Source: a virus
Direction: 5' to 3' (one strand)
DNA: 32,544 nt
IMG/VR virus record: IMGVR_UViG_3300035670_000843
Span: 1 to 32,544 of that record
A program made the position numbers and the translations under genes. The notes under the pieces were generated by a model, which saw only the letters and a program-made list of their open reading frames with translations, had not been told where the DNA came from and ran no database searches. Positions 4,972 to 28,654 of this stretch are shown one piece after another (the first letter of the stretch is position 1; the number at the start of each line of letters is the position of its first letter).

Positions 4972-5487
4972 ATGAAAACCAAAGTAGCGAAAGTAGCAAG
5001 TCCTGCTGCTATTGCTGTGCTTCGCCAAGCGACAGCATTGTGGCCGAAGCGCAAGAAAGCGTCAGACGGATTATTGCCTTCATCGGCTCACCTAGCAGCG
5101 AGTCCGGGCAGCGACCACAACACGGGTCTTGCTGTTGATTTAACCCACGACCCGAAGAATGGGGTTGACTGTGCGAAACTATTTGAAGAACTTAAGGAAG
5201 ACCCGAGAGTTAAGTATCTCATCTTTAACCGAAAGATTTGGTCTAAGGAAAAGAGCCGTCTTGGTAATCGTCCTTATACTGGGTCTAACCCTCACACTAA
5301 GCATTTACATATATCTATTGAACCTGATATGGCTAGTGATACTAGTCCTTGGTTCTGGTGGATGAACCAACCTAAGATTGTGAACCAGGTAAAGGCAAAG
5401 CTATCGCCTAAGCCTAAGAAGAAACCAGCAGAGCCAGAAGTCTGTACCTGCTGCAAGGTTCACAATAAACAAAGAAAGGCAATCTAA
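4972..5487 (+). CDS. Endolysin, M15 (VanY/D-Ala-D-Ala carboxypeptidase) type
   Basis: A 171-aa zinc peptidase. S-D-H-N-T-G-L-A-V-D at residues 47-56 gives the first zinc His (49) and Asp (56), and H-L-H at 111-113 the second His, the arrangement of M15 peptidases that cut peptidoglycan cross-links. The C-terminal ~40 residues are Lys/Pro-rich (K-P-K-K-K-P) followed by a Cys pair (C-T-C-C), perhaps a small wall-binding or zinc tail. There is no signal peptide, so it needs a holin to reach the wall. Genes for small membrane proteins flank it on both sides; the ATG has AGGAG upstream and overlaps the downstream ATG by one base. Confidence 0.85.
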   Translation: MKTKVAKVASPAAIAVLRQATALWPKRKKASDGLLPSSAHLAASPGSDHNTGLAVDLTHDPKNGVDCAKLFEELKEDPRVKYLIFNRKIWSKEKSRLGNRPYTGSNPHTKHLHISIEPDMASDTSPWFWWMNQPKIVNQVKAKLSPKPKKKPAEPEVCTCCKVHNKQRKAI

Positions 5488-5669
5488 TGGAGAAGCTAAA
5501 GCAAGTATCTCTGACTTGGTTCCGTGCAGCAGCAGCCGCTGCCATTGCACTATACCTAGCAGGAGAAACTGACCTGAAGGTATTAGGAACTGCAGCATTG
5601 GCAGGATTCCTCGGTCCAGTCCTTAAGTGGCTAGACCCATCTGCGCCAGAGTTTGGTCGCAAGAAGTAA
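5487..5669 (+). CDS. Small membrane protein, probable holin
   Basis: A 60-aa protein with two hydrophobic stretches, roughly residues 12-26 (F-R-A-A-A-A-A-A-I-A-L-Y-L-A-G) and 32-49 (V-L-G-T-A-A-L-A-G-F-L-G-P-V-L), separated by the short polar turn E-T-D-L-K, and a charged end (E-F-G-R-K-K). Size, two-segment topology and position directly after the endolysin match small phage holins. The ATG overlaps the endolysin TAA. It is the last gene of the lysis operon before the terminator. Which of the two membrane proteins makes the lethal hole cannot be told from sequence. Confidence 0.7.
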   Translation: MEKLKQVSLTWFRAAAAAAIALYLAGETDLKVLGTAALAGFLGPVLKWLDPSAPEFGRKK

Positions 5670-5692
5670 TAGTTCAGTAGCGCGAGGCAAGG

Positions 5693-5720
5693 CCCCCGGG
5701 AAACCGGGGGTTCTTTTTTT
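5693..5720 (+). terminator. Strong intrinsic terminator after lysis genes
   Basis: A 7-bp GC stem CCCCCGG / CCGGGGG closes a GAAA tetraloop (5693-5710) and is followed at once by TTCTTTTTTT. It ends the plus-strand tail/lysis transcript. The minus side has no T-run after the stem, so it would be weaker for the convergent gene at 5737. Confidence 0.9.
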
Positions 5721-5724
5721 GTCT

Positions 5725-5744
5725 CTAAATTTAGTGCTAAATTT
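5725..5744. repeat. Short palindrome/duplicated 8-mer at end of minus-strand gene
   Basis: AAATTTAG (5727-5734) and CTAAATTT (5737-5744) form a perfect inverted repeat with a 2-base centre. CTAAATTT also occurs directly repeated at 5725 and 5737. It covers the stop codon of the minus-strand gene and lies beside the terminator. It may be part of that gene's 3' end or a protein site. Confidence 0.45.
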
Positions 5745-5967
5745 GGTCAGGTTTATCTATGGGGCAAGGAGCTTTCAGCAGATTGCCACAGTTAGCGCAT
5801 TGAACATCTAGGGCATACCAGCAGATTTCATAATCCTCAAACTGGACATAGGTATTAAATACTGTACATCCGCAGGAACAAGCGTGAGTTGGACCTATGC
5901 TTCGCAGGTCAGCAGCCTGTATTGGTGGTAGGCTATTCTTTCGCAGCCTTGGTAGACGTAGCCACAT
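5737..5967 (-). CDS. Zinc-ribbon protein, conserved-looking, unknown function
   Basis: A 76-aa protein from the ATG at 5967; the frame stays open to an ATG at 6057, which would add 30 Arg-rich residues encoded by a hairpin-containing stretch. I prefer 5967 because AGGAGGG lies just upstream (spacing long, ~14 bases). The C-terminal half has Cys clusters H-A-C-S-C-G-C and C-A-N-C-G with a further Cys near the end, spaced by a Y-V-Q-F-E-D-Y-E-I strand region, as in a zinc ribbon. It is the only minus-strand gene in this area, between the lysis terminator and the proteasome-like gene. DNA or RNA binding is possible but unproven. Confidence 0.7.
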   Translation of the reverse strand: MWLRLPRLRKNSLPPIQAADLRSIGPTHACSCGCTVFNTYVQFEDYEICWYALDVQCANCGNLLKAPCPIDKPDQI

Positions 5968-6016
5968 TGCTCGGCACGGCTCCCTCCTGTGGTCGGTCGC
6001 CTCTCGGCTACCGCCT

Positions 6017-6034
6017 CGGCCCCGTAAGGGGCCG
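6017..6034. repeat. GC-rich hairpin in divergent region
   Basis: CGGCCCC and GGGGCCG form a 7-bp stem with a GTAA loop. It lies between the minus-strand zinc-ribbon gene and the plus-strand gene at 6120. With no adjacent T-run it is more likely a leader structure than a terminator. Confidence 0.55.
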
Positions 6035-6073
6035 TCTGTAATTCGCCTTCGGCTCATATTGTAATAAACTGCC

Positions 6074-6096
6074 GTGTGTCGCTAGGCGCGACACGC
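6074..6096. promoter_or_regulatory. Inverted repeat just upstream of the 6120 gene
   Basis: GTGTCGC (6076-6082) and GCGACAC (6088-6094) pair perfectly across TAGGC. The stem ends a few bases before the ribosome site GAGGAGG (6101-6107). It could be an operator or a leader hairpin controlling the proteasome-like gene. Confidence 0.5.
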
Positions 6097-6119
6097 CGTA
6101 GAGGAGGTAAGATTTTCTT

Positions 6120-6683
6120 GTGACTACCCTCATCGGAATCCAACTAGAAGACCGCTGTGTATTAGCTGCCGATTCTCAGATAACCGAAGATAACCAAAGG
6201 ACTGTTGCTACCGCAACGCCAAAGATAATCTCCGTCGGTAAGTATCTGCTGGGAATCACAGGTGATTCTAGACCTGGTGACATCCTTGCGTATAACTGGA
6301 CTCCGCCGAGTTACAAAGGCGCAGACCCGATTCAATGGATGGGAAAGAAAGTACTGCCGTCCATACTCACGGCGTTTAAGGAGAATAACTATGACCCATT
6401 TGAAGCAACCAAAGATAAAGATGCAGGGTTTGATTACCTCGTCGCTTTCAACGGCAACCTATTTCATATCGCGGTGGACCTATCGTTCATACAATCTGAT
6501 TACGGGGCCTACGGTCTTGGGTCGGGTGGTAGCTTCGGTCTTGGCTATATCTATGGCCTTTCTGCTTCTTCTCTTCGTAGACAACCTGAGCAACACGCCC
6601 GACGTGCCGTAGAGATTGCGTCGGTACTTGACGTAAATACCTGCCCTCCAATACAGTTGGTTGTCCAACACAAGGAGTATTGA
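6120..6683 (+). CDS. Proteasome beta/HslV-like Ntn-hydrolase
   Basis: A 187-aa protein with a GTG start and GAGGAGG upstream. After Met removal the N-terminus is Thr-Thr-Leu-Ile-Gly, the usual start of mature proteasome beta and HslV chains, with Thr1 as nucleophile. Counting from Thr1, A-A-D-S puts Asp at 17, T-P-K-I puts Lys at 34 (33 in the canonical numbering), and G-I-T-G-D puts Gly at 47. A later G-S-G-G-S-F-G-L-G matches the GSG loop that holds the catalytic Ser/Gly. There is no propeptide, as in HslV. The family forms ring-shaped threonine proteases fed by an ATPase, but no HslU/ClpX/Mpa partner is visible here. The target may be phage or host proteins; this is unknown. Confidence 0.8.
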   Translation: MTTLIGIQLEDRCVLAADSQITEDNQRTVATATPKIISVGKYLLGITGDSRPGDILAYNWTPPSYKGADPIQWMGKKVLPSILTAFKENNYDPFEATKDKDAGFDYLVAFNGNLFHIAVDLSFIQSDYGAYGLGSGGSFGLGYIYGLSASSLRRQPEQHARRAVEIASVLDVNTCPPIQLVVQHKEY

Positions 6684-6865
6684 TGCAAAGGGATTTTGGC
6701 AGATACAGTGTCCACATCAACAGGCACTACCTAAGTAACTTCGCTCTTGGCTTTGATTACTATAAGCTACTAGAGCACAAGACAAACATTCACGAAGCAT
6801 CAGTTCTACAGTTGAACTTTCTGTTCTTTAACATTACATTTACTAGGTGGGCAAGATGGATATAA
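6683..6865 (+). CDS. Small protein of unknown function
   Basis: A 60-aa protein whose ATG overlaps the previous stop (TGATG), with AAGGAG at 6671-6676; an in-frame TTG at 6680 is less likely. It is aromatic and basic: F-G-R-Y-S-V-H-I-N near the start, F-A-L-G-F-D-Y-Y-K in the middle and L-F-F-N-I-T-F-T-R-W near the end. It ends 10 bases inside the next gene. No Cys or catalytic motif. The compact beta-rich pattern suggests a small folded protein. No family recognised. Confidence 0.65.
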   Translation: MQRDFGRYSVHINRHYLSNFALGFDYYKLLEHKTNIHEASVLQLNFLFFNITFTRWARWI

Positions 6866-7794
6866 AAGAATTATTAGTTAAGGCTTTACACGAGCGCGAG
6901 AACAACCGACCTCGCAGTACGCAAGTACAGATAGGTCCATCAGAATTGGGTGGGTGCCGCCGTAAGGTTTGGTATCGACTCAATAACCAGCCTGAGACGA
7001 ACGACGCAGAACTAAAGCTCGCTGCCATTATGGGAACGGCTATACATTCTGCCATCGAGTCAGCTCTCGCTGGTAACAACTCAATACTACTTGAAAGTAC
7101 CGTTGAATATAACGGTATGAAAGCACACGTAGACGCATTCCTGCCGGACACAGGGGACGTCATAGATTGGAAGACAGTAAAGGCTAAGAACCTTTCCTAC
7201 TTTCCAAGCCAACAGCAACGTTGGCAAGTACAGGTATACGGCTACCTGATTGAGAAGTCCGGGGTGGGGAAGCCCAAGACTGTCAATTTGGTAGCTATAC
7301 CAAGAGACGGTGATGAGCGAGACATCAAAGTTCACTCTGAACCATACGATGAGAAGATAGCATTGGAAGCCTTAGACTGGCTTGCTGCTATCAAAGAGTC
7401 TGCTGAAGCACCAGCACCCGAGCGCGATGAGAGTTACTGCAAATTCTATTGCAAGTACTACGATTCAACAGGCGAGATGGGATGCGTTGGTCTAAAAAAA
7501 GAACGTACAAAAACTGAATTACCTATCATTGATAGTCCTGATGCAGACACCTCTGCTATGGAATATCTACAACTCGACAACCAGATTAAGGAACTGACCG
7601 AACGAAAGGAAGCGTTGCGAGACGGTCTAACTGGATTACTCGGCGTTACTAAATCTGGTTTCGAGATTAAATGGACTACGGTCCAAAACAATACAGTCGA
7701 TAAAGAAGCGGTGGAGAAAGCACTAGGCTTCGTACCGACTAAGCAGGGCAAAGAAAGCGCAAGGCTTTCGATTAAACATAATGGAGGAAACTAA
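6856..7794 (+). CDS. Cas4/RecB-like PD-(D/E)XK exonuclease with Fe-S cysteines
   Basis: A 312-aa nuclease. From Met1: a single Cys at 34 (G-G-C-R-R-K-V-W-Y), a conserved G-T-A-I-H at 60-64, the metal Asp at 93 (H-V-D-A-F), D-W-K at 104-106 as the D-x-K catalytic pair, then Q-R-W-Q-V-Q-V-Y helix residues near 121-128, and three Cys at 195, 199 and 210. One N-terminal plus three C-terminal Cys is the Fe-S layout of Cas4/AddB-type nucleases. A Glu/Lys coiled region follows (residues ~235-260). It probably resects phage or host DNA during recombination or replication. I chose the ATG at 6856 over the GTG at 6847; the ribosome site is weak for either. Confidence 0.8.
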   Translation: MDIKELLVKALHERENNRPRSTQVQIGPSELGGCRRKVWYRLNNQPETNDAELKLAAIMGTAIHSAIESALAGNNSILLESTVEYNGMKAHVDAFLPDTGDVIDWKTVKAKNLSYFPSQQQRWQVQVYGYLIEKSGVGKPKTVNLVAIPRDGDERDIKVHSEPYDEKIALEALDWLAAIKESAEAPAPERDESYCKFYCKYYDSTGEMGCVGLKKERTKTELPIIDSPDADTSAMEYLQLDNQIKELTERKEALRDGLTGLLGVTKSGFEIKWTTVQNNTVDKEAVEKALGFVPTKQGKESARLSIKHNGGN

Positions 7795-8177
7795 TGGCTG
7801 CGGAAACAACCAAGTTCCAAGTGAACTTTAAGACTCATAAAGATGGAACTTTGATAAACATTTATGCTGATTCTGTAAAGGATTTAGAGACTCAGATTAC
7901 TGATATTTCTATGCTGGCTTCTTTAATCAAAGCAACTGAAAGAGAATTGTTGTCTGGACCAAATGCACCACTATCACCAGAGCAAGTAGCTAAACAACTA
8001 GGTGCTGTTCCAGTACCTGCTAATAAACCCACTGCACCAGCAGAAGGTGGTCATATTTGTAAGCACGGCAATATGCCATTTAGAGAAGGTGTAAGTGCTA
8101 AAGGACCTTGGAAGGGTTATATGTGCGCTGCTCCAAAGGGAGCAACAGACAAGTGCCCGACAATTTGGGTCAGGTAA
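7794..8177 (+). CDS. Zinc-motif protein next to the exonuclease
   Basis: A 127-aa protein; the ATG overlaps the exonuclease TAA by one base with GGAGGA upstream. Residues 1-55 form a beta/helix domain (F-Q-V-N-F-K-T-H-K-D-G-T-L-I-N-I), residues 60-85 a Pro/Ala linker, and residues 87-121 a compact metal site with H87, C89, H91, C111 and C121 in H-I-C-K-H-G and C-P-T-I-W. The tight coupling to the nuclease suggests a DNA-binding partner in the same recombination or repair step, perhaps for single strands. That is inference from context. Confidence 0.7.
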   Translation: MAAETTKFQVNFKTHKDGTLINIYADSVKDLETQITDISMLASLIKATERELLSGPNAPLSPEQVAKQLGAVPVPANKPTAPAEGGHICKHGNMPFREGVSAKGPWKGYMCAAPKGATDKCPTIWVR

Positions 8178-8181
8178 TGCG

Positions 8182-8442
8182 ATGCGTGAGCCGCGTAACT
8201 ACGAGGCTCCGCTATGTGCAGAAGTCGGAGGGGACCTATGGTTTCCAGAACACACTACAGGTGTTCCAGATATACAGCGAGCAAAAAGTATTTGTGGACG
8301 TTGTGAGCACCGACTCGAATGCGCCGAATGGGGCATTAACTATGAACGATATGGCATCTGGGGTGGACTTAGCGCCTCTCAGAGAGAGTCAATAAGAACA
8401 AGAAGAAGAATAAGATTACCAAGGGAGGGTAGAAGTGCTTAA
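8182..8442 (+). CDS. WhiB-family Fe-S transcription regulator
   Basis: An 86-aa protein with the complete WhiB signature: Cys at 12, 38, 41 and 47 (C-x25-C-x2-C-x5-C) for a 4Fe-4S cluster, G-I-W-G-G at 58-62 and a basic C-terminal tail (R-T-R-R-R-I-R-L-P-R). WhiB proteins are confined to Actinobacteria and their phages and act with the primary sigma factor, so this gene is the best host marker in the window. A phage copy could redirect host transcription or block host WhiB functions. The ATG at 8182 gives the usual family length; the next gene starts 8 bases before its stop. Confidence 0.92.
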   Translation: MREPRNYEAPLCAEVGGDLWFPEHTTGVPDIQRAKSICGRCEHRLECAEWGINYERYGIWGGLSASQRESIRTRRRIRLPREGRSA

Positions 8443-9268
8443 GTTGTCACGCGCTTGGAGTAGCGTAACAACCAAGGCAACGCCTTTACCCGATGTATGG
8501 AAGGACCTAAGCAGCAAACAGATTAAGTTCCGGCGTGGTCAAGTGTGTATGGTTGCCGCTGCACCTAACGCTGGAAAGTCTATGTTCGCTTTGGTCTATG
8601 CCATCAGAGCTAAGGTGCCTACCCTTTTCTTCTCTGCAGATACAGATACTGCAACGGTAATGATACGAGTAGCCTCAGCGCTGTCAGGTCACGGACAGGT
8701 CAGCGTTGAGTCTAATCTGCAAAGGAATCCTCGTCACTACGATAATTACTTAAAGGATATGACTCACATACAGTGGGTCTTTGATTCATCACCATCGCTC
8801 GATGACATTGAGTTAGAGATTAAGGCCTATGTAGAAGTCTTTGGTGTAGCACCGGAACTTATAGTCATAGATAACCTGATGAATGTTGTAGCAGAACACG
8901 AGAACGAATGGGCTGGGCTTCGTCAGATAATGATGGAGCTTCACGATATGGCTAGGAAAACCGAAGCCTGCGTAATGGTATTGCACCACGTATCAGAGCA
9001 GGGTGAGTATGGTGATACCACCACACCACCTGCAAGACGAGCCATTCACGGCAAGGTAAGTCAGCTTCCGTCGCTGATACTTACCCTTGGCTATTCACCA
9101 CTAGAAGGAACGCTACGCGTTGCTCCGGTAAAGAATCGCTTTGGTCCTATGTATGCCAATGCTGACCAGCACGTTGCATTGTTTGTCGACTATGCAACTT
9201 GCCGGATAGAAAACGCAGATGAGATAGGGCGTATGGTTCGTCGCAATAATGCTGAGGTTAGATACTAA
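8435..9268 (+). CDS. DnaB/RecA-fold ATPase (replicative helicase-like)
   Basis: A 277-aa P-loop protein. Walker A is A-P-N-A-G-K-S at 43-49, Walker B is L-I-V-I-D-N at 142-147, and V-L-H-H-V-S near 180 fits the sensor strand of DnaB/KaiC-like ATPases. It lacks the DnaB N-terminal domain, so it is only the motor part, as in many phage helicases. A GTG start with AAGGGAGGG upstream overlaps the WhiB gene. With the primase genes at 12471-13386 it likely forms the phage replication machinery, unwinding DNA at the fork. A RecA-like or RadA-like recombination ATPase is the alternative. Confidence 0.8.
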   Translation: MLKLSRAWSSVTTKATPLPDVWKDLSSKQIKFRRGQVCMVAAAPNAGKSMFALVYAIRAKVPTLFFSADTDTATVMIRVASALSGHGQVSVESNLQRNPRHYDNYLKDMTHIQWVFDSSPSLDDIELEIKAYVEVFGVAPELIVIDNLMNVVAEHENEWAGLRQIMMELHDMARKTEACVMVLHHVSEQGEYGDTTTPPARRAIHGKVSQLPSLILTLGYSPLEGTLRVAPVKNRFGPMYANADQHVALFVDYATCRIENADEIGRMVRRNNAEVRY

Positions 9269-23557: not shown

Positions 23558-23948
23558 AGGACCACTCGCTGGTGCATCAGGCCCTGGCAAGTTCTCCAAG
23601 AGAACAGATATGGCTATGCCATCACAGTTTTACGGCGAAGGTGTTGAGACTGCCGCTATTCAAGCAGGTGCTCCACTCGCTAAAACCGCAGATGTTCGCG
23701 GTATGCCAGCAGGTCAAGTACGTGAAGCCGCAGCACAGGCTCCAATAACTCCATTATTTGCACCATCAACTCGTCCAGATGAACCGATTACTGCAGGTAT
23801 TGCAATGGGTCCTGGCCCTGGACCTGAAGTACTTGGCGTTAATCAAATGGCACAAAAGACATCAGATGCTTTAGCAAAGATGCTTCCATTTGACACTACT
23901 GGCGAAATAGCAATTCTTTATCAGCAAGCTCTAGCGCGAGGTGATTAG
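23550..23948 (+). CDS. Small head/structural protein
   Basis: A 132-aa protein, GGAGGACAACA before its ATG. Gly/Pro/Ala-rich N-terminus (R-G-P-L-A-G-A-S-G-P-G-K-F-S-K-R), a middle with P-I-T-P-L-F-A-P and G-P-G-P-G-P, then a helical end (A-Q-K-T-S-D-A-L-A-K-M-L). Its stop overlaps the GTG of the giant gene. Likely an accessory virion protein. Confidence 0.65.
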   Translation: MARGPLAGASGPGKFSKRTDMAMPSQFYGEGVETAAIQAGAPLAKTADVRGMPAGQVREAAAQAPITPLFAPSTRPDEPITAGIAMGPGPGPEVLGVNQMAQKTSDALAKMLPFDTTGEIAILYQQALARGD

Positions 23949-26900
23949 TGGCTGACAAACTATCTGCAGCCGCAGCCGCTGCTGGTTTGACTCCTGAAGA
24001 GCGTAAGCGAATTGAAGACTTAAGCAAGACAATCGCTAACAACAGAGAACTTTCTAACTTGCCAGCAAAAGTTGCGAACGAAGCGTTTAATAATAAGACA
24101 ACTGCACAGCAGGCAGCTCTTACCAATTTTGCTGGCACAGAGCCAACGCCTAATCGCGGCTGGCTTTCAACGGCTTGGCACTACACCCTTGGTGGCGCAG
24201 TCAACGTTTTGACTGAGCTATCTGATTTGTCTACCCGCGCCTATCGCGCTGCAGCAATTCCATTGTCACGTGGCGAGATTGGCTTTGCTTGGGATGAAGC
24301 AAACGACAAAGGTGATTTAGTATTTAACAAGGGCCGCGTAGAAGATGCTCGTCGTAAGTTTGGTAACCCAACGGTCAATGTTGCTCTTAAAGTTGCCCAG
24401 GGTCAGAAGTTATCTGACATCATCAACAATGGTACCGAAGAAGAAAAGCAAGTTGCCAGAACTGCACAGACTGGATTTAAGACACAAGACGGCAAAGTAG
24501 ATGGCGGTATCTTCCAAGATGCGTTAGATGCAGTAAATGCTGCTAAGTATTCACCAGGACGTCAGTTAGCAAACCTTCTTCTTCCAGGACAGCTAGAAGG
24601 CTCAGGACTTCTTTATAGAAGCATCTCAGGATTTACTGATGCTGCTTATAGAATCATTGCTGACCCAACTCTTATCGCTGGAAAAGCAAAGCGCCTATTT
24701 GATGTAAGCAAGTACGCTGTCGATGTAGTAGTCGGCGGTAATAAAGTAGACGAAGTATTTGCCAAGCCACAAGTTCAGGCTTTCTGGAATCAGTACGGCG
24801 CTAACCTAAAGAAACTCAAAGATGCTACTGAGCGCGGTGCTGCCGATGAGATGATGCAGGCTCGTAACTCTCTTCGCACTATGGCACCTGAGTTTGGCCC
24901 AGCAGTTGTTAATTCATTCCTACGGGCAGACGTACCTGTCGAAAACGCTATTACTGCCAAGGCTTTCTTTGCTAACGCAAAGCAGGTTGATGAAATATTC
25001 TCAGGCCAGATTGGTCGCAAGCGCGTACTGATTCCTAAACTTGGCAATCCTTTGATTCCTGGAACAAGGGCATTCAGGATTAGCGTAGTTACCACAGCTA
25101 ATAAGGTGTTTAACCTAGACCGCATCGGTCCTAAGTTTGTAGATGATTTATTTTTTGGTGGTGCTGCAACTACCGATGGTATCGCAGAGAAACTAATCAA
25201 CGGTCGTAAAGAGATTGTTGAACAAGTAACTGCTAACGAGTCATCAAAGGGTGTTGCTAGATTCTCTACGGCTATGATTCAACGCCGCCTAGATAGATTT
25301 AAGTCTAAGTTTGAGCGTATCCCATTCTTTGAGAATAACCAATTTGACGTAATGAGCAAGGATGCTCAGACAAAGATTTATCAACTAGCCCGTTTGGTTT
25401 TACCACAGCGCGAGTCTAAGTTAATTTCTGAAGCGTTTGAAGCTGCATCAGGTAGCGGTAAGCGTAAGGAAATCTTCTACGGTCTACAGTCAACCATTGC
25501 TGAAATTCGCGGGTTGAATGTAACCAAAGAAGGCAAGACTATCTTTGACGAGATTACTGGTCGCGTTAAGCCTATGCACGCAGCTCGTAACGCAGATGGC
25601 TATAACCCGTCGCTTTTGCCTAATGGTGAATCTGTAGGTCTCATCCTTTCAGATAATTCTAACTTTGTATCTACTATAAGCCTGCGAGACTTGGATAGAG
25701 CAGCATCCCGTTCTGGACTCATTCAAAGAATGGCAGGAGTAGGTTCATCTAACTGGGTAGAAAAAATGACTTCTTACTGGTCATTCTTAACCCTTGCTGG
25801 ACCACGTTACGCTATCCGTAACGCAACAGAAGATTTGCTAGTACACCTAGCCATCGGTGAATCACCTTGGGGCTTGGTAAAGGGCCGCGCTCTTTCAACA
25901 CGCTTACGCACCGCACGTCAAGTAGAAAAAGGCTTGACTGGTATGCAGGCTGTTGCCAATACCCCACTTGGTAGCGTACTTAGATTTGTTAATAAAAAAG
26001 AAGCAAAGGCTTATGGCGCTGCTATTGAGGCAGCTCAAGGCGATGTTAAGCAGGTCCGTGAGATTATCGCTAACGCTCTTAATGAAGGAAAGATTGTTCG
26101 CCTTAATGAGCGTCTAGGTTTAGGTAAGTTTACAAAAGCAGACCGAGAACTCCTTGCAGAGCAGATTCGTTTCGGCGATTTAGATAATGCTTTAGCCGAT
26201 GTTGTAGAAGGTGGACGTCAGGCTTTTACCGGTATCGATTCATATAACCGCGTAATTAACTTTACTCGCAAAAACAAGGTTCGCACAGCGGAACTGACCT
26301 ACACATTACCTTCAAATTTCCGTCGCGCTCGTGGCGGTAGATTCAAAGAGATGATGCCTACCATTGCTGACGAATCTACAATGGTTGCTTGGTTAATGCG
26401 TATTGGCTACTACTCAAATGACCAACTAGGCGCTATTGCTGTAGCAAACCTAGCAGATGACGCAGCAGGCGAGACAGCGGCAGTAACAAAGATATTCCAA
26501 TGGCTAGATGACCCAAAGAATGACAATCTAGTCAAGGCTTTTCGTCTTGAAGAGAACGGCATCTCTAAGCAAGAGCACGCACAACGCATCTATGATGCGG
26601 CAAAGCAGTTGTTTGTAAAGCGCAACGGAACTCTAAACAAAGAACTTCTTGACAAGGTTCGCGTTATTGACGATGCCACAGGAGAATTTAGAATCTCCGG
26701 TAATCTATCAATGGATGACCTGCCTAAGACTGATGCAGACTTACCAGAATACCTTGTTGGCCCATCGCTAGTTCCAGTATCTGATTCAGATAACTATGCA
26801 GCCTCTATTATGGAATGGGGTTGGGACTGGTTAGGAAACGCTAACGCTAGATTCTCACGTGAACCTATGGTCTTGGCTGAGATGGTCAAGATTCGTAAGC

Positions 26901-28654
26901 AATTCAAGTCAACAGGTTTTGAAGACGCGTTTATTGCGGCTTACAAAAAGGGTATTACAGACGCAGATGGATTAGCAAAGGCTGAAACTGCTGCCCGTCG
27001 TAAACTCGCAGAGATTGCAGAGGACAGAGCACGTCTACAAATCCTTGCATATGTAGATAACCCAGCGGTACAGAGCCAGTTGGCTTTCGGAATCCGTAAC
27101 TTTGCTCGTTTCTATCGCGCAACTGAAGACTTTTATCGACGTTTTTACCGTGCAGTACGCTACAACCCAGAGTCTCTAGCCCGTGCAGCCCTCACATATG
27201 AGGGAATTACGCACTCAGGTTGGGTACAAAAGGATGACCAGGGCGAAGATTACTTCTTATACCCTGGAGTTCAACAGGTTTACCGAGCTGTACAGACTGC
27301 AATGCAGGCTTTAGGTGTGCCAGCAGAGTTCAAAGCACCACTTCCTGTGGAATTTGGTGCAAAACTTAAGATGATTACCCCATCTTTGAGCATTGACTCC
27401 GTAGTTCCTACACTTGCTGGTCCGTTATCTGGCGTATCCATTAAGGTTGTATCCAATCTTGTAGATATTTTCTCACCAGGTGCAGCAGATACGATTACAA
27501 GAGTAACACTTGGTAAGTATGCAGAGAATCAACCTATGGTTTCTGCCTTCTTGCCAGCACATATTAACCGTATCTACTCGGCAATGAACCAGAATGACCG
27601 AGATGGTCAGTATGCCAGCGCTTGGCGCAAGGCAGTTACTTATCTTGAGGCTTCAGGTCACGGCTTACAGCAGAAGTACACAACCGATGAGTTCGGTAAC
27701 GAAATACCAGTACCGTTTACTGCAGAAGAGTTAGATGACTACCGTCGCAGAGTAAAGAATATCACTATGGGTATTCTTGGTTTACGAGTTGTATACGGCT
27801 TTGTAGCACCAGCATCACCGCAGATTACGCTCAAGAGCGATATGGCTGACTGGGTTCGTGACAATGGTGAGGCTTCATTTAAGCAAGTTTGGTACGGAAT
27901 CCTAGATAAGACTGGCGATTATGACCAGGCTATGTCTGAATGGGTACGTCTATTCCCAGACCAGATGCCGTTTACTGTGTCCGAATCTCAGAGAGATACC
28001 GTTGCGTACTTCAGATATGCACAAGAATCTGGTGACTTTGTAAACAATAATCCAGAGTTATTCAAGAAGCATAAGCAAGCCGCAGCCTTCTTGATACCTC
28101 ATAAGGGCGGATTCTCTTGGGATGCTTACAGGACTATGACCGATATGGGTCTACGTCAGAATAAGCAGGTAGATGAGTTCCTTCGTGAAGCGCAAACTGC
28201 TGCAGATATGCAGACATATTACGAGCGTAAAAACAAATATGAAGCAGATTTAGAGTCTGTAGGTACAGACTTTGAGCGTCAGCAGTTACGTGCCGAGTGG
28301 ACTAATTGGGCAACACTATTCAAAGCAGGACGCCCATTGGTTCAAGAAGAACTAGCAGAAGGCGGTCGCAAAGCAGTAGAGCGACTCAATGCGCTCAATG
28401 ACCTGAAGGCAATGCTAGATAGCGGTATCGCTGATAGCGCAGCGCCTGAAACCGTAGCAAGACTACGCGAGATGGCAGACTTGTACTTCAACTACAAGCG
28501 TAATGCAGAGAAACTTGCGCTAGTAAGCGGCGGTTCTACCTTGGCTAAATGGGAAAAAGAAAACACCATTATCAAGATGCGTGAACTATCTCAGCTAAAT
28601 GAGAACACAGTTAATACCTACAACTTGCTGTTCGGAAGACTACTAGGAGACTAA
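23948..28654 (+). CDS. Giant (1568-aa) virion-associated protein, possible ejected protein
   Basis: The largest gene of the window, GTG start at the previous stop. Mostly helical with Lys/Arg/Ala/Glu. Recognisable blocks: a Trp-rich piece near residues 70-120 (G-W-L-S-T-A-W-H-Y), a hydrophobic stretch W-S-F-L-T-L-A-G-P-R-Y-A near 615, R-N-F-A-R-F-Y-R-A-T-E-D-F-Y near 1050 and W-D-W-L-G-N-A near 960. No polymerase (D-x-x-G-R), peptidase or glycosidase signature is evident. Length, position among head genes and the hydrophobic patches resemble proteins packed in the head and ejected with DNA. Multi-domain polyvalent proteins are an alternative. Function is unknown. Confidence 0.6.
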   Translation: MADKLSAAAAAAGLTPEERKRIEDLSKTIANNRELSNLPAKVANEAFNNKTTAQQAALTNFAGTEPTPNRGWLSTAWHYTLGGAVNVLTELSDLSTRAYRAAAIPLSRGEIGFAWDEANDKGDLVFNKGRVEDARRKFGNPTVNVALKVAQGQKLSDIINNGTEEEKQVARTAQTGFKTQDGKVDGGIFQDALDAVNAAKYSPGRQLANLLLPGQLEGSGLLYRSISGFTDAAYRIIADPTLIAGKAKRLFDVSKYAVDVVVGGNKVDEVFAKPQVQAFWNQYGANLKKLKDATERGAADEMMQARNSLRTMAPEFGPAVVNSFLRADVPVENAITAKAFFANAKQVDEIFSGQIGRKRVLIPKLGNPLIPGTRAFRISVVTTANKVFNLDRIGPKFVDDLFFGGAATTDGIAEKLINGRKEIVEQVTANESSKGVARFSTAMIQRRLDRFKSKFERIPFFENNQFDVMSKDAQTKIYQLARLVLPQRESKLISEAFEAASGSGKRKEIFYGLQSTIAEIRGLNVTKEGKTIFDEITGRVKPMHAARNADGYNPSLLPNGESVGLILSDNSNFVSTISLRDLDRAASRSGLIQRMAGVGSSNWVEKMTSYWSFLTLAGPRYAIRNATEDLLVHLAIGESPWGLVKGRALSTRLRTARQVEKGLTGMQAVANTPLGSVLRFVNKKEAKAYGAAIEAAQGDVKQVREIIANALNEGKIVRLNERLGLGKFTKADRELLAEQIRFGDLDNALADVVEGGRQAFTGIDSYNRVINFTRKNKVRTAELTYTLPSNFRRARGGRFKEMMPTIADESTMVAWLMRIGYYSNDQLGAIAVANLADDAAGETAAVTKIFQWLDDPKNDNLVKAFRLEENGISKQEHAQRIYDAAKQLFVKRNGTLNKELLDKVRVIDDATGEFRISGNLSMDDLPKTDADLPEYLVGPSLVPVSDSDNYAASIMEWGWDWLGNANARFSREPMVLAEMVKIRKQFKSTGFEDAFIAAYKKGITDADGLAKAETAARRKLAEIAEDRARLQILAYVDNPAVQSQLAFGIRNFARFYRATEDFYRRFYRAVRYNPESLARAALTYEGITHSGWVQKDDQGEDYFLYPGVQQVYRAVQTAMQALGVPAEFKAPLPVEFGAKLKMITPSLSIDSVVPTLAGPLSGVSIKVVSNLVDIFSPGAADTITRVTLGKYAENQPMVSAFLPAHINRIYSAMNQNDRDGQYASAWRKAVTYLEASGHGLQQKYTTDEFGNEIPVPFTAEELDDYRRRVKNITMGILGLRVVYGFVAPASPQITLKSDMADWVRDNGEASFKQVWYGILDKTGDYDQAMSEWVRLFPDQMPFTVSESQRDTVAYFRYAQESGDFVNNNPELFKKHKQAAAFLIPHKGGFSWDAYRTMTDMGLRQNKQVDEFLREAQTAADMQTYYERKNKYEADLESVGTDFERQQLRAEWTNWATLFKAGRPLVQEELAEGGRKAVERLNALNDLKAMLDSGIADSAAPETVARLREMADLYFNYKRNAEKLALVSGGSTLAKWEKENTIIKMRELSQLNENTVNTYNLLFGRLLGD

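Follow-up and report, generated by a model that had tools for sequence, protein, structure and literature searches.

A predicted proteasome-like threonine peptidase of freshwater actinophages, probably acting without an unfoldase of its own

HslV and the 20S proteasome are proteolytic halves that work together with AAA+ unfoldases. Their wider family is more varied: the beta-proteobacterial proteasome homologue (BPH) has no known unfoldase, Anbu assembles as a split, open ring, and connectase, itself proteasome-like, acts as a monomeric protein ligase (PMC8665760). A first-pass annotation of the DNA studied here had taken chains of this type to be driven by an ATPase, which, given these three relatives, does not hold for the family as a whole. 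Phages also encode such proteins. Fuchs, Alva and Lupas described in 2021 the phage proteasome homologues PPH and AAH, the latter being the sequence cluster that includes WP_035979212; they found no co-occurring AAA+ partners for their novel families, and no Actinobacteria-specific phages with AAH (PMC8665760). The kind of protein reported below is therefore already known.

We analyzed a 32.5-kb tailed-phage record from IMG/VR (hereafter the window), which encodes TerL, a portal protein (assigned by its position and its relative in phage F5), a DnaB-like helicase, primase pieces, a sigma factor, an endolysin and a WhiB regulator. Its TerL is 43–46% identical to those of Streptomyces phages and of the Planktophila phages E7 and F5 (PMC10202952). 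Of the 41 records searched, the window among them, 36 contain WhiB, against a single one of the 14 control genomes (Corynebacterium); an actinobacterial host is therefore almost certain. Downstream of the portal gene lies a 1568-aa ORF (23948-28654, plus strand) without a PHROG match, whose counterparts vary greatly in length and identity. The gene of interest is the following:

6120..6683, plus strand: HslV/proteasome-beta-like Ntn hydrolase gene (187 aa, GTG start, stop TGA at 6681-6683, predicted mature N-terminus Thr at residue 2)

Its translation opens MTTLIGIQLEDRCVLAADSQ... and continues for 187 aa. The dN/dS values of the window copy against 16 relatives range from 0.06 to 0.19; this is a real coding gene under strong purifying selection. 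The first-pass annotation had the chain begin with Thr-Thr after Met loss, and the relatives support this start site: Met-Thr-Thr stands at the same position in nearly all relatives, with ATT/ATC-Thr-Thr in a few. Many relatives have the frame closed by a stop one to five codons 5' of the conserved start, which makes a propeptide impossible in them. ATT or ATC replaces ATG/GTG at the conserved start in six relatives (L020, L027, L028, L038, L039 and L045); in three of them (L038, L039 and L045), no in-frame ATG, GTG or TTG is found between this codon and the stop 5' of it, pointing to genuine ATT starts.

At least 594 IMG/VR stretches encode relatives of the window protein. How far such genes spread among phages had been left as a question; they prove very widespread in freshwater actinophages, with other subfamilies in many Caudoviricetes. 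To judge prevalence, we used records located through the portal gene and not through the HslV-like gene itself, their completeness not being certified: eight of the ten related records that reach 25 kb, and all five that reach 33 kb, have the gene. Its phage group thus almost always carries it. Scans of GTDB genomes with the HslV-like protein and with the portal recovered no relatives. One related virus record (that of L189) holds two HslV-like genes, at G051:C1:43658-44215 and 5255-5770.

The window protein matches PHROG_1040, “peptidase HslV family”, with E=3e-19; a single-sequence Pfam search stayed below threshold (0.0038), and the copy scores below the curated cut-offs of Pfam and NCBIfam. 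We also aligned 75 relatives, most of them about 25–35% identical to the window copy. The Pfam Proteasome family (PF00227) is matched by 65 of the 75 (best 2.6e-9), and their profile, searched against the PDB, hit HslV (E=4e-12), BPH over residues 2–182 (E=1.4e-11) and eukaryotic beta5 (~3e-8). AlphaFold run on this alignment returned a model with pLDDT 89.7 and pTM 0.86 (five models, 87.7–89.7), superseding an earlier run on 35 close sequences (pLDDT 68.6). The first-pass annotation had suggested comparing a predicted structure with HslV and the proteasome; in Foldseek against the PDB, the model matched BPH 5ovs first (E=6e-11, TM 0.73), then HslV and proteasome beta, and no other Ntn family appeared among the first 50 structure matches. 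The same fold was found in dozens of phage proteins in BFVD. Helices H1–H4 are present in the model (H1, residues 50–59; H2, residues 70–88), while a propeptide and the C-terminal S12/H5 are absent, giving a compact HslV/BPH layout. By predicted fold, catalytic residues and profile E-values, the window protein belongs to the proteasome-like Ntn hydrolases (PF00227 clan), a family marked by a beta-sandwich core with Thr1 or Ser1, Asp17, Lys33 and the oxyanion Gly47. The original proposal of a phage-encoded proteasome-beta/HslV-like N-terminal-Thr hydrolase is accordingly supported by sequence profiles, catalytic invariance and predicted fold.

The active site can be read from the following codons, with residues numbered from Met:

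6123..6125, plus strand: Thr2, predicted catalytic Thr1 after Met removal; invariant in 75/75 and in both phage clades described below (MTT, MTC)
6171..6173, plus strand: Asp18 (proteasome Asp17); invariant in 75/75 and in the MTC clade
6222..6224, plus strand: Lys35 (proteasome Lys33); invariant in 75/75 and in the MTC clade
6261..6263, plus strand: Gly48 (proteasome Gly47, oxyanion hole); invariant in the MTT clade, Ser/Gln/Thr in the MTC clade
6519..6530, plus strand: G-S-G-G loop, residues 134-137 (Ser135 at the proteasome Ser129 position); G134 and G136 invariant, S/T at 135

Only ten columns of the 75-sequence alignment are invariant: M1, T2, T3, D18, K35, G48, R51, P63, G134 and G136. 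They contain the proteasome set Thr1/Asp17/Lys33/Gly47 (numbering as in PMC8665760), and the chance of four named positions falling among 10 invariant columns of 187 is, by simple arithmetic, ~4e-6. The Asp17, Lys34, Gly47 and G-S-G loop named at first pass are all in place when Thr2 is counted as residue 1 (the loop, G-S-G-G, spans 134–137 with Met); on this count, the lysine comes one position later than proteasome Lys33. Most of the clade also has D171 and T174 at the proteasome Asp166 and Ser169 positions, which, like Ser135 at that of Ser129, we take to have a role in the active site. The invariance of the catalytic set in 75 relatives makes catalytic decay very unlikely, and the protein is, as far as its residues tell, catalytically intact.

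The same Thr1 centre could in principle serve a specific transpeptidase, ligase or amidohydrolase rather than a protease. Ntn hydrolase chemistry varies widely, and connectase is a homologue that uses this active site as a monomeric protein ligase (PMC8665760). The model, however, has H1 and H2, both absent in connectase, lacks connectase's two-helix insertion between S3 and S4, and finds its closest structures in the ring-forming BPH and HslV. We regard such a non-proteolytic enzyme as very unlikely.

In a tree, the family splits into two groups by N-terminal motif, although its deeper branch order is uncertain and weakly supported owing to long branches. The MTT group comprises the window clade, the Planktophila-phage clade, DSL-LC01 and its relatives, Arthrobacter phage Pitbull and Microbacterium phage Pumpernickel. 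The MTC group is proteobacterial and comprises phages of Vibrio, Pseudoalteromonas, Aeromonas, Pantoea and Psychrobacter, together with Mesorhizobium, Sinorhizobium and Paraburkholderia plasmids, a host range that probably identifies it as PPH. It keeps T2, D18 and K35; Gly48 is replaced by Ser, Thr or Gln (mostly Ser) and Thr174 mostly by Val, whereas the window clade has the MTT start and retains Gly48. Single-sequence queries with the Pseudoalteromonas phage J2-1 and Pantoea phage AAS21 proteins returned no further viral relatives.

How does the window protein compare with each described family? With PHROG_1040, PPH and AAH, it shares a phage origin, the proteasome-like fold, Thr1/Asp17/Lys33 and a compact form with neither a propeptide nor a known AAA+ partner. 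PPH, however, has ~140 residues and lacks helix H2 (PMC8665760), while the window protein runs to 187, shows H1 as well as H2 in its model, and sits on a branch separate from the MTC clade that holds the Pseudoalteromonas-phage and Mesorhizobium members. BPH (5ovs/5ovu), the closest solved relative, is the best structural match (TM 0.73) and a full-length profile match, likewise without a propeptide or known unfoldase, but it is bacterial and only ~24% identical; it forms a double heptameric ring with peptidase activity, a comparison that for the window protein extends to the predicted monomer fold. HslV (ClpQ) shares the fold, the N-terminal TT, the Asp17/Lys/Gly47 set and the GSGG loop, yet is ~14–22% identical, and no HslU is encoded with the window protein. 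Identity as HslV itself was rejected, with a score of 23.2 bits against equivalog cut-offs of 137 and 157.75 and HslU-type AAA_2 in none of 30 records. So was identity as a bacterial 20S proteasome beta subunit (PrcB): the window copy is not among the TIGR03690 matches and has no propeptide, and no alpha-subunit (PrcA) gene was seen among its neighbours.

Relatives are also found in actinophages. The Planktophila phages LanE43AprE7/F5 (OX376640, OX376641; PMC10202952) carry WhiB and share 46% identity in TerL, 53% in the portal and 30% in the HslV-like protein; in contrast to the window, where it is part of the replication-side operon, their HslV-like gene is the one immediately after the portal gene. 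Further MTT-type relatives, three of them in isolated phages, are annotated “protease” (Microbacterium phage Pumpernickel 135, Arthrobacter phages Pitbull 77 and Hum25 81) or “ATP-dependent protease subunit” (DSL-LC01); they are ~26–40% identical to members of the wider clade and have other gene neighbourhoods. The actinophage MTT clade would be a new member of this known kind, being distinct from HslV, PrcB and, by the H2 criterion, PPH, in a comparison that covered these three.

The window had been reported to lack a partner ATPase. For AAA+ unfoldases, we confirm this: the P-loop ATPases seen are the DnaB-like helicase and TerL. The search for an HslU/ClpX-type ATPase, suggested for the rest of the phage, gave AAA_2 above cut-off in none of 30 related records, the window included, with all 14 controls positive. 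AAA (PF00004) matches in the Planktophila-phage clade were rejected as unfoldases, the F5 match (L002, ~6613-7029) lying inside a DnaB-like helicase gene (6499-7281). The 129-kb DSL-LC01 has two PF00004 matches. An ATP-driven version of the window's system would, with no unfoldase found in phage records of its clade, have to borrow one: the phage ring might dock on a host AAA+ unfoldase (actinobacterial ARC/Mpa, ClpX/ClpC or similar), redirecting or competing with host degradation. Against such docking, the HslV equivalog scores lie far below cut-off (23 bits vs 137–158), and the novel families surveyed by Fuchs et al. showed no co-occurring AAA+ partners (PMC8665760); we consider it unlikely.

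The genomic setting of the gene is described by the following features:

5737-6057, minus strand: antisense ORF of 106 aa with CxC...CxxC (zinc-ribbon-like), 75–94% identical in relatives
6102..6107, plus strand: Shine-Dalgarno-like AGGAGG, 12 nt 5' of the GTG, similar in sequence in several relatives
6683..6865, plus strand: 60-aa ORF whose start overlaps the HslV-like stop (TGATG); directly downstream in 71/80 relatives
6847..7794, plus strand: Cas4/RecB-like exonuclease (PF01930 E=1e-7, phrog_1674 E=6e-30); second gene downstream in 68 relatives (of 80 loci)
8095..8442, plus strand: WhiB-like regulator, marker of an actinobacterial host (PF02467 E=1.4e-13)
8435-9268: DnaB-like helicase (P-loop ATPase)

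Gene order in the window's clade runs endolysin, antisense zinc-ribbon ORF (just upstream of the HslV-like gene in 52 of 76 loci), HslV-like gene, 60-aa ORF, Cas4-like exonuclease, gp49, WhiB and helicase, so that the HslV-like gene heads a fixed replication-side operon. From this gene order, early expression is probable. The 60-aa ORF is probably translationally coupled to the HslV-like gene. Six aligned copies are 47–75% identical to that of the window, with DYY, QxN and TRW among the strongly conserved motifs, and no family match was found for it; its product is a possible partner of the HslV-like protein.

Head proteases are usually located just after the portal gene, and this is where the HslV-like gene stands in all 80 F5-like (Planktophila-phage) loci and in two further relatives (L198 and L210). 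Early expression is hence not a property of the whole family, and a proteasome-like fold could have been recruited as a prohead protease for capsid maturation, later displaced from its post-portal place in the window's lineage. In the window clade, however, the gene is part of the replication-side operon and distant from the head genes, and DSL-LC01, Pumpernickel and Pitbull also carry it away from the portal. Moreover, in a 43-kb relative the 308-aa major head protein (phrog_1357) is matched from residue 7 onward, so that not much of an N-terminal extension would be there for trimming, and this relative also encodes a scaffold-like protein of its own (a weak scaffold match). A role in head maturation thus appears improbable.

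The best explanation of the whole, to which we assign a probability of roughly 60%, is an early-acting, proteasome-like N-terminal-threonine peptidase of the phage without an unfoldase of its own. By homology, Met would be removed from the nascent chain to expose Thr1, which Lys34 and Asp17 (mature numbering; both residues observed, as is Gly47) would activate, with Gly47 forming the oxyanion hole. The compact HslV/BPH layout of the model makes assembly into a homo-oligomeric particle of one or two rings, active only when assembled, the most likely arrangement. Since the search of the window's clade turned up no phage unfoldase, the protein would probably trim peptides and unfolded or flexible proteins as BPH does, or borrow a host ATPase. 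It would probably be made early and act on host or misfolded proteins during takeover, not in the virion. A bolder version, in which abundant freshwater actinophages turn an unfoldase-free threonine-peptidase ring, its adaptor or gate being the coupled 60-aa protein, on host or defence proteins early in infection and as a near-core function, in effect an autonomous viral proteasome-like particle, seems to us quite unlikely. PADLOC gave no defence-system match for the HslV-like protein.

Catalogues of phage proteasome homologues go back to 2021 but assign them no function. The MTT clade adds a clear actinophage branch to a survey that had no Actinobacteria-specific phages with AAH, and offers a good entry point: all its catalytic residues are retained, purifying selection is strong, few members of the phage group lack the gene, and relatives occur in phages of cultivated hosts (Planktophila, Microbacterium and Arthrobacter). 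Because the gene occupies two alternative genome positions, on the replication side or behind the portal, experiments could tell an early-takeover role from one in head assembly.

The region upstream of the gene (elements at 6076-6098 and 6108-6113) contains an inverted repeat, GTGTCGC-TAGGC-GCGACAC followed by GCCG, which is conserved in most of the clade and present as a single copy in the window. Of 57 distinct relatives, 29 have a TANNNT hexamer ending exactly 6 nt ahead of the start codon (at most 6 in shuffles, the relatives not being independent). This spacing would fit a -10 element and a message with no leader or almost none. In phage F5, where the HslV-like gene is elsewhere, one GCGACACGCCG stands at the corresponding place after the endolysin (L002 4824-4834), and the element may therefore control the replication-side operon.
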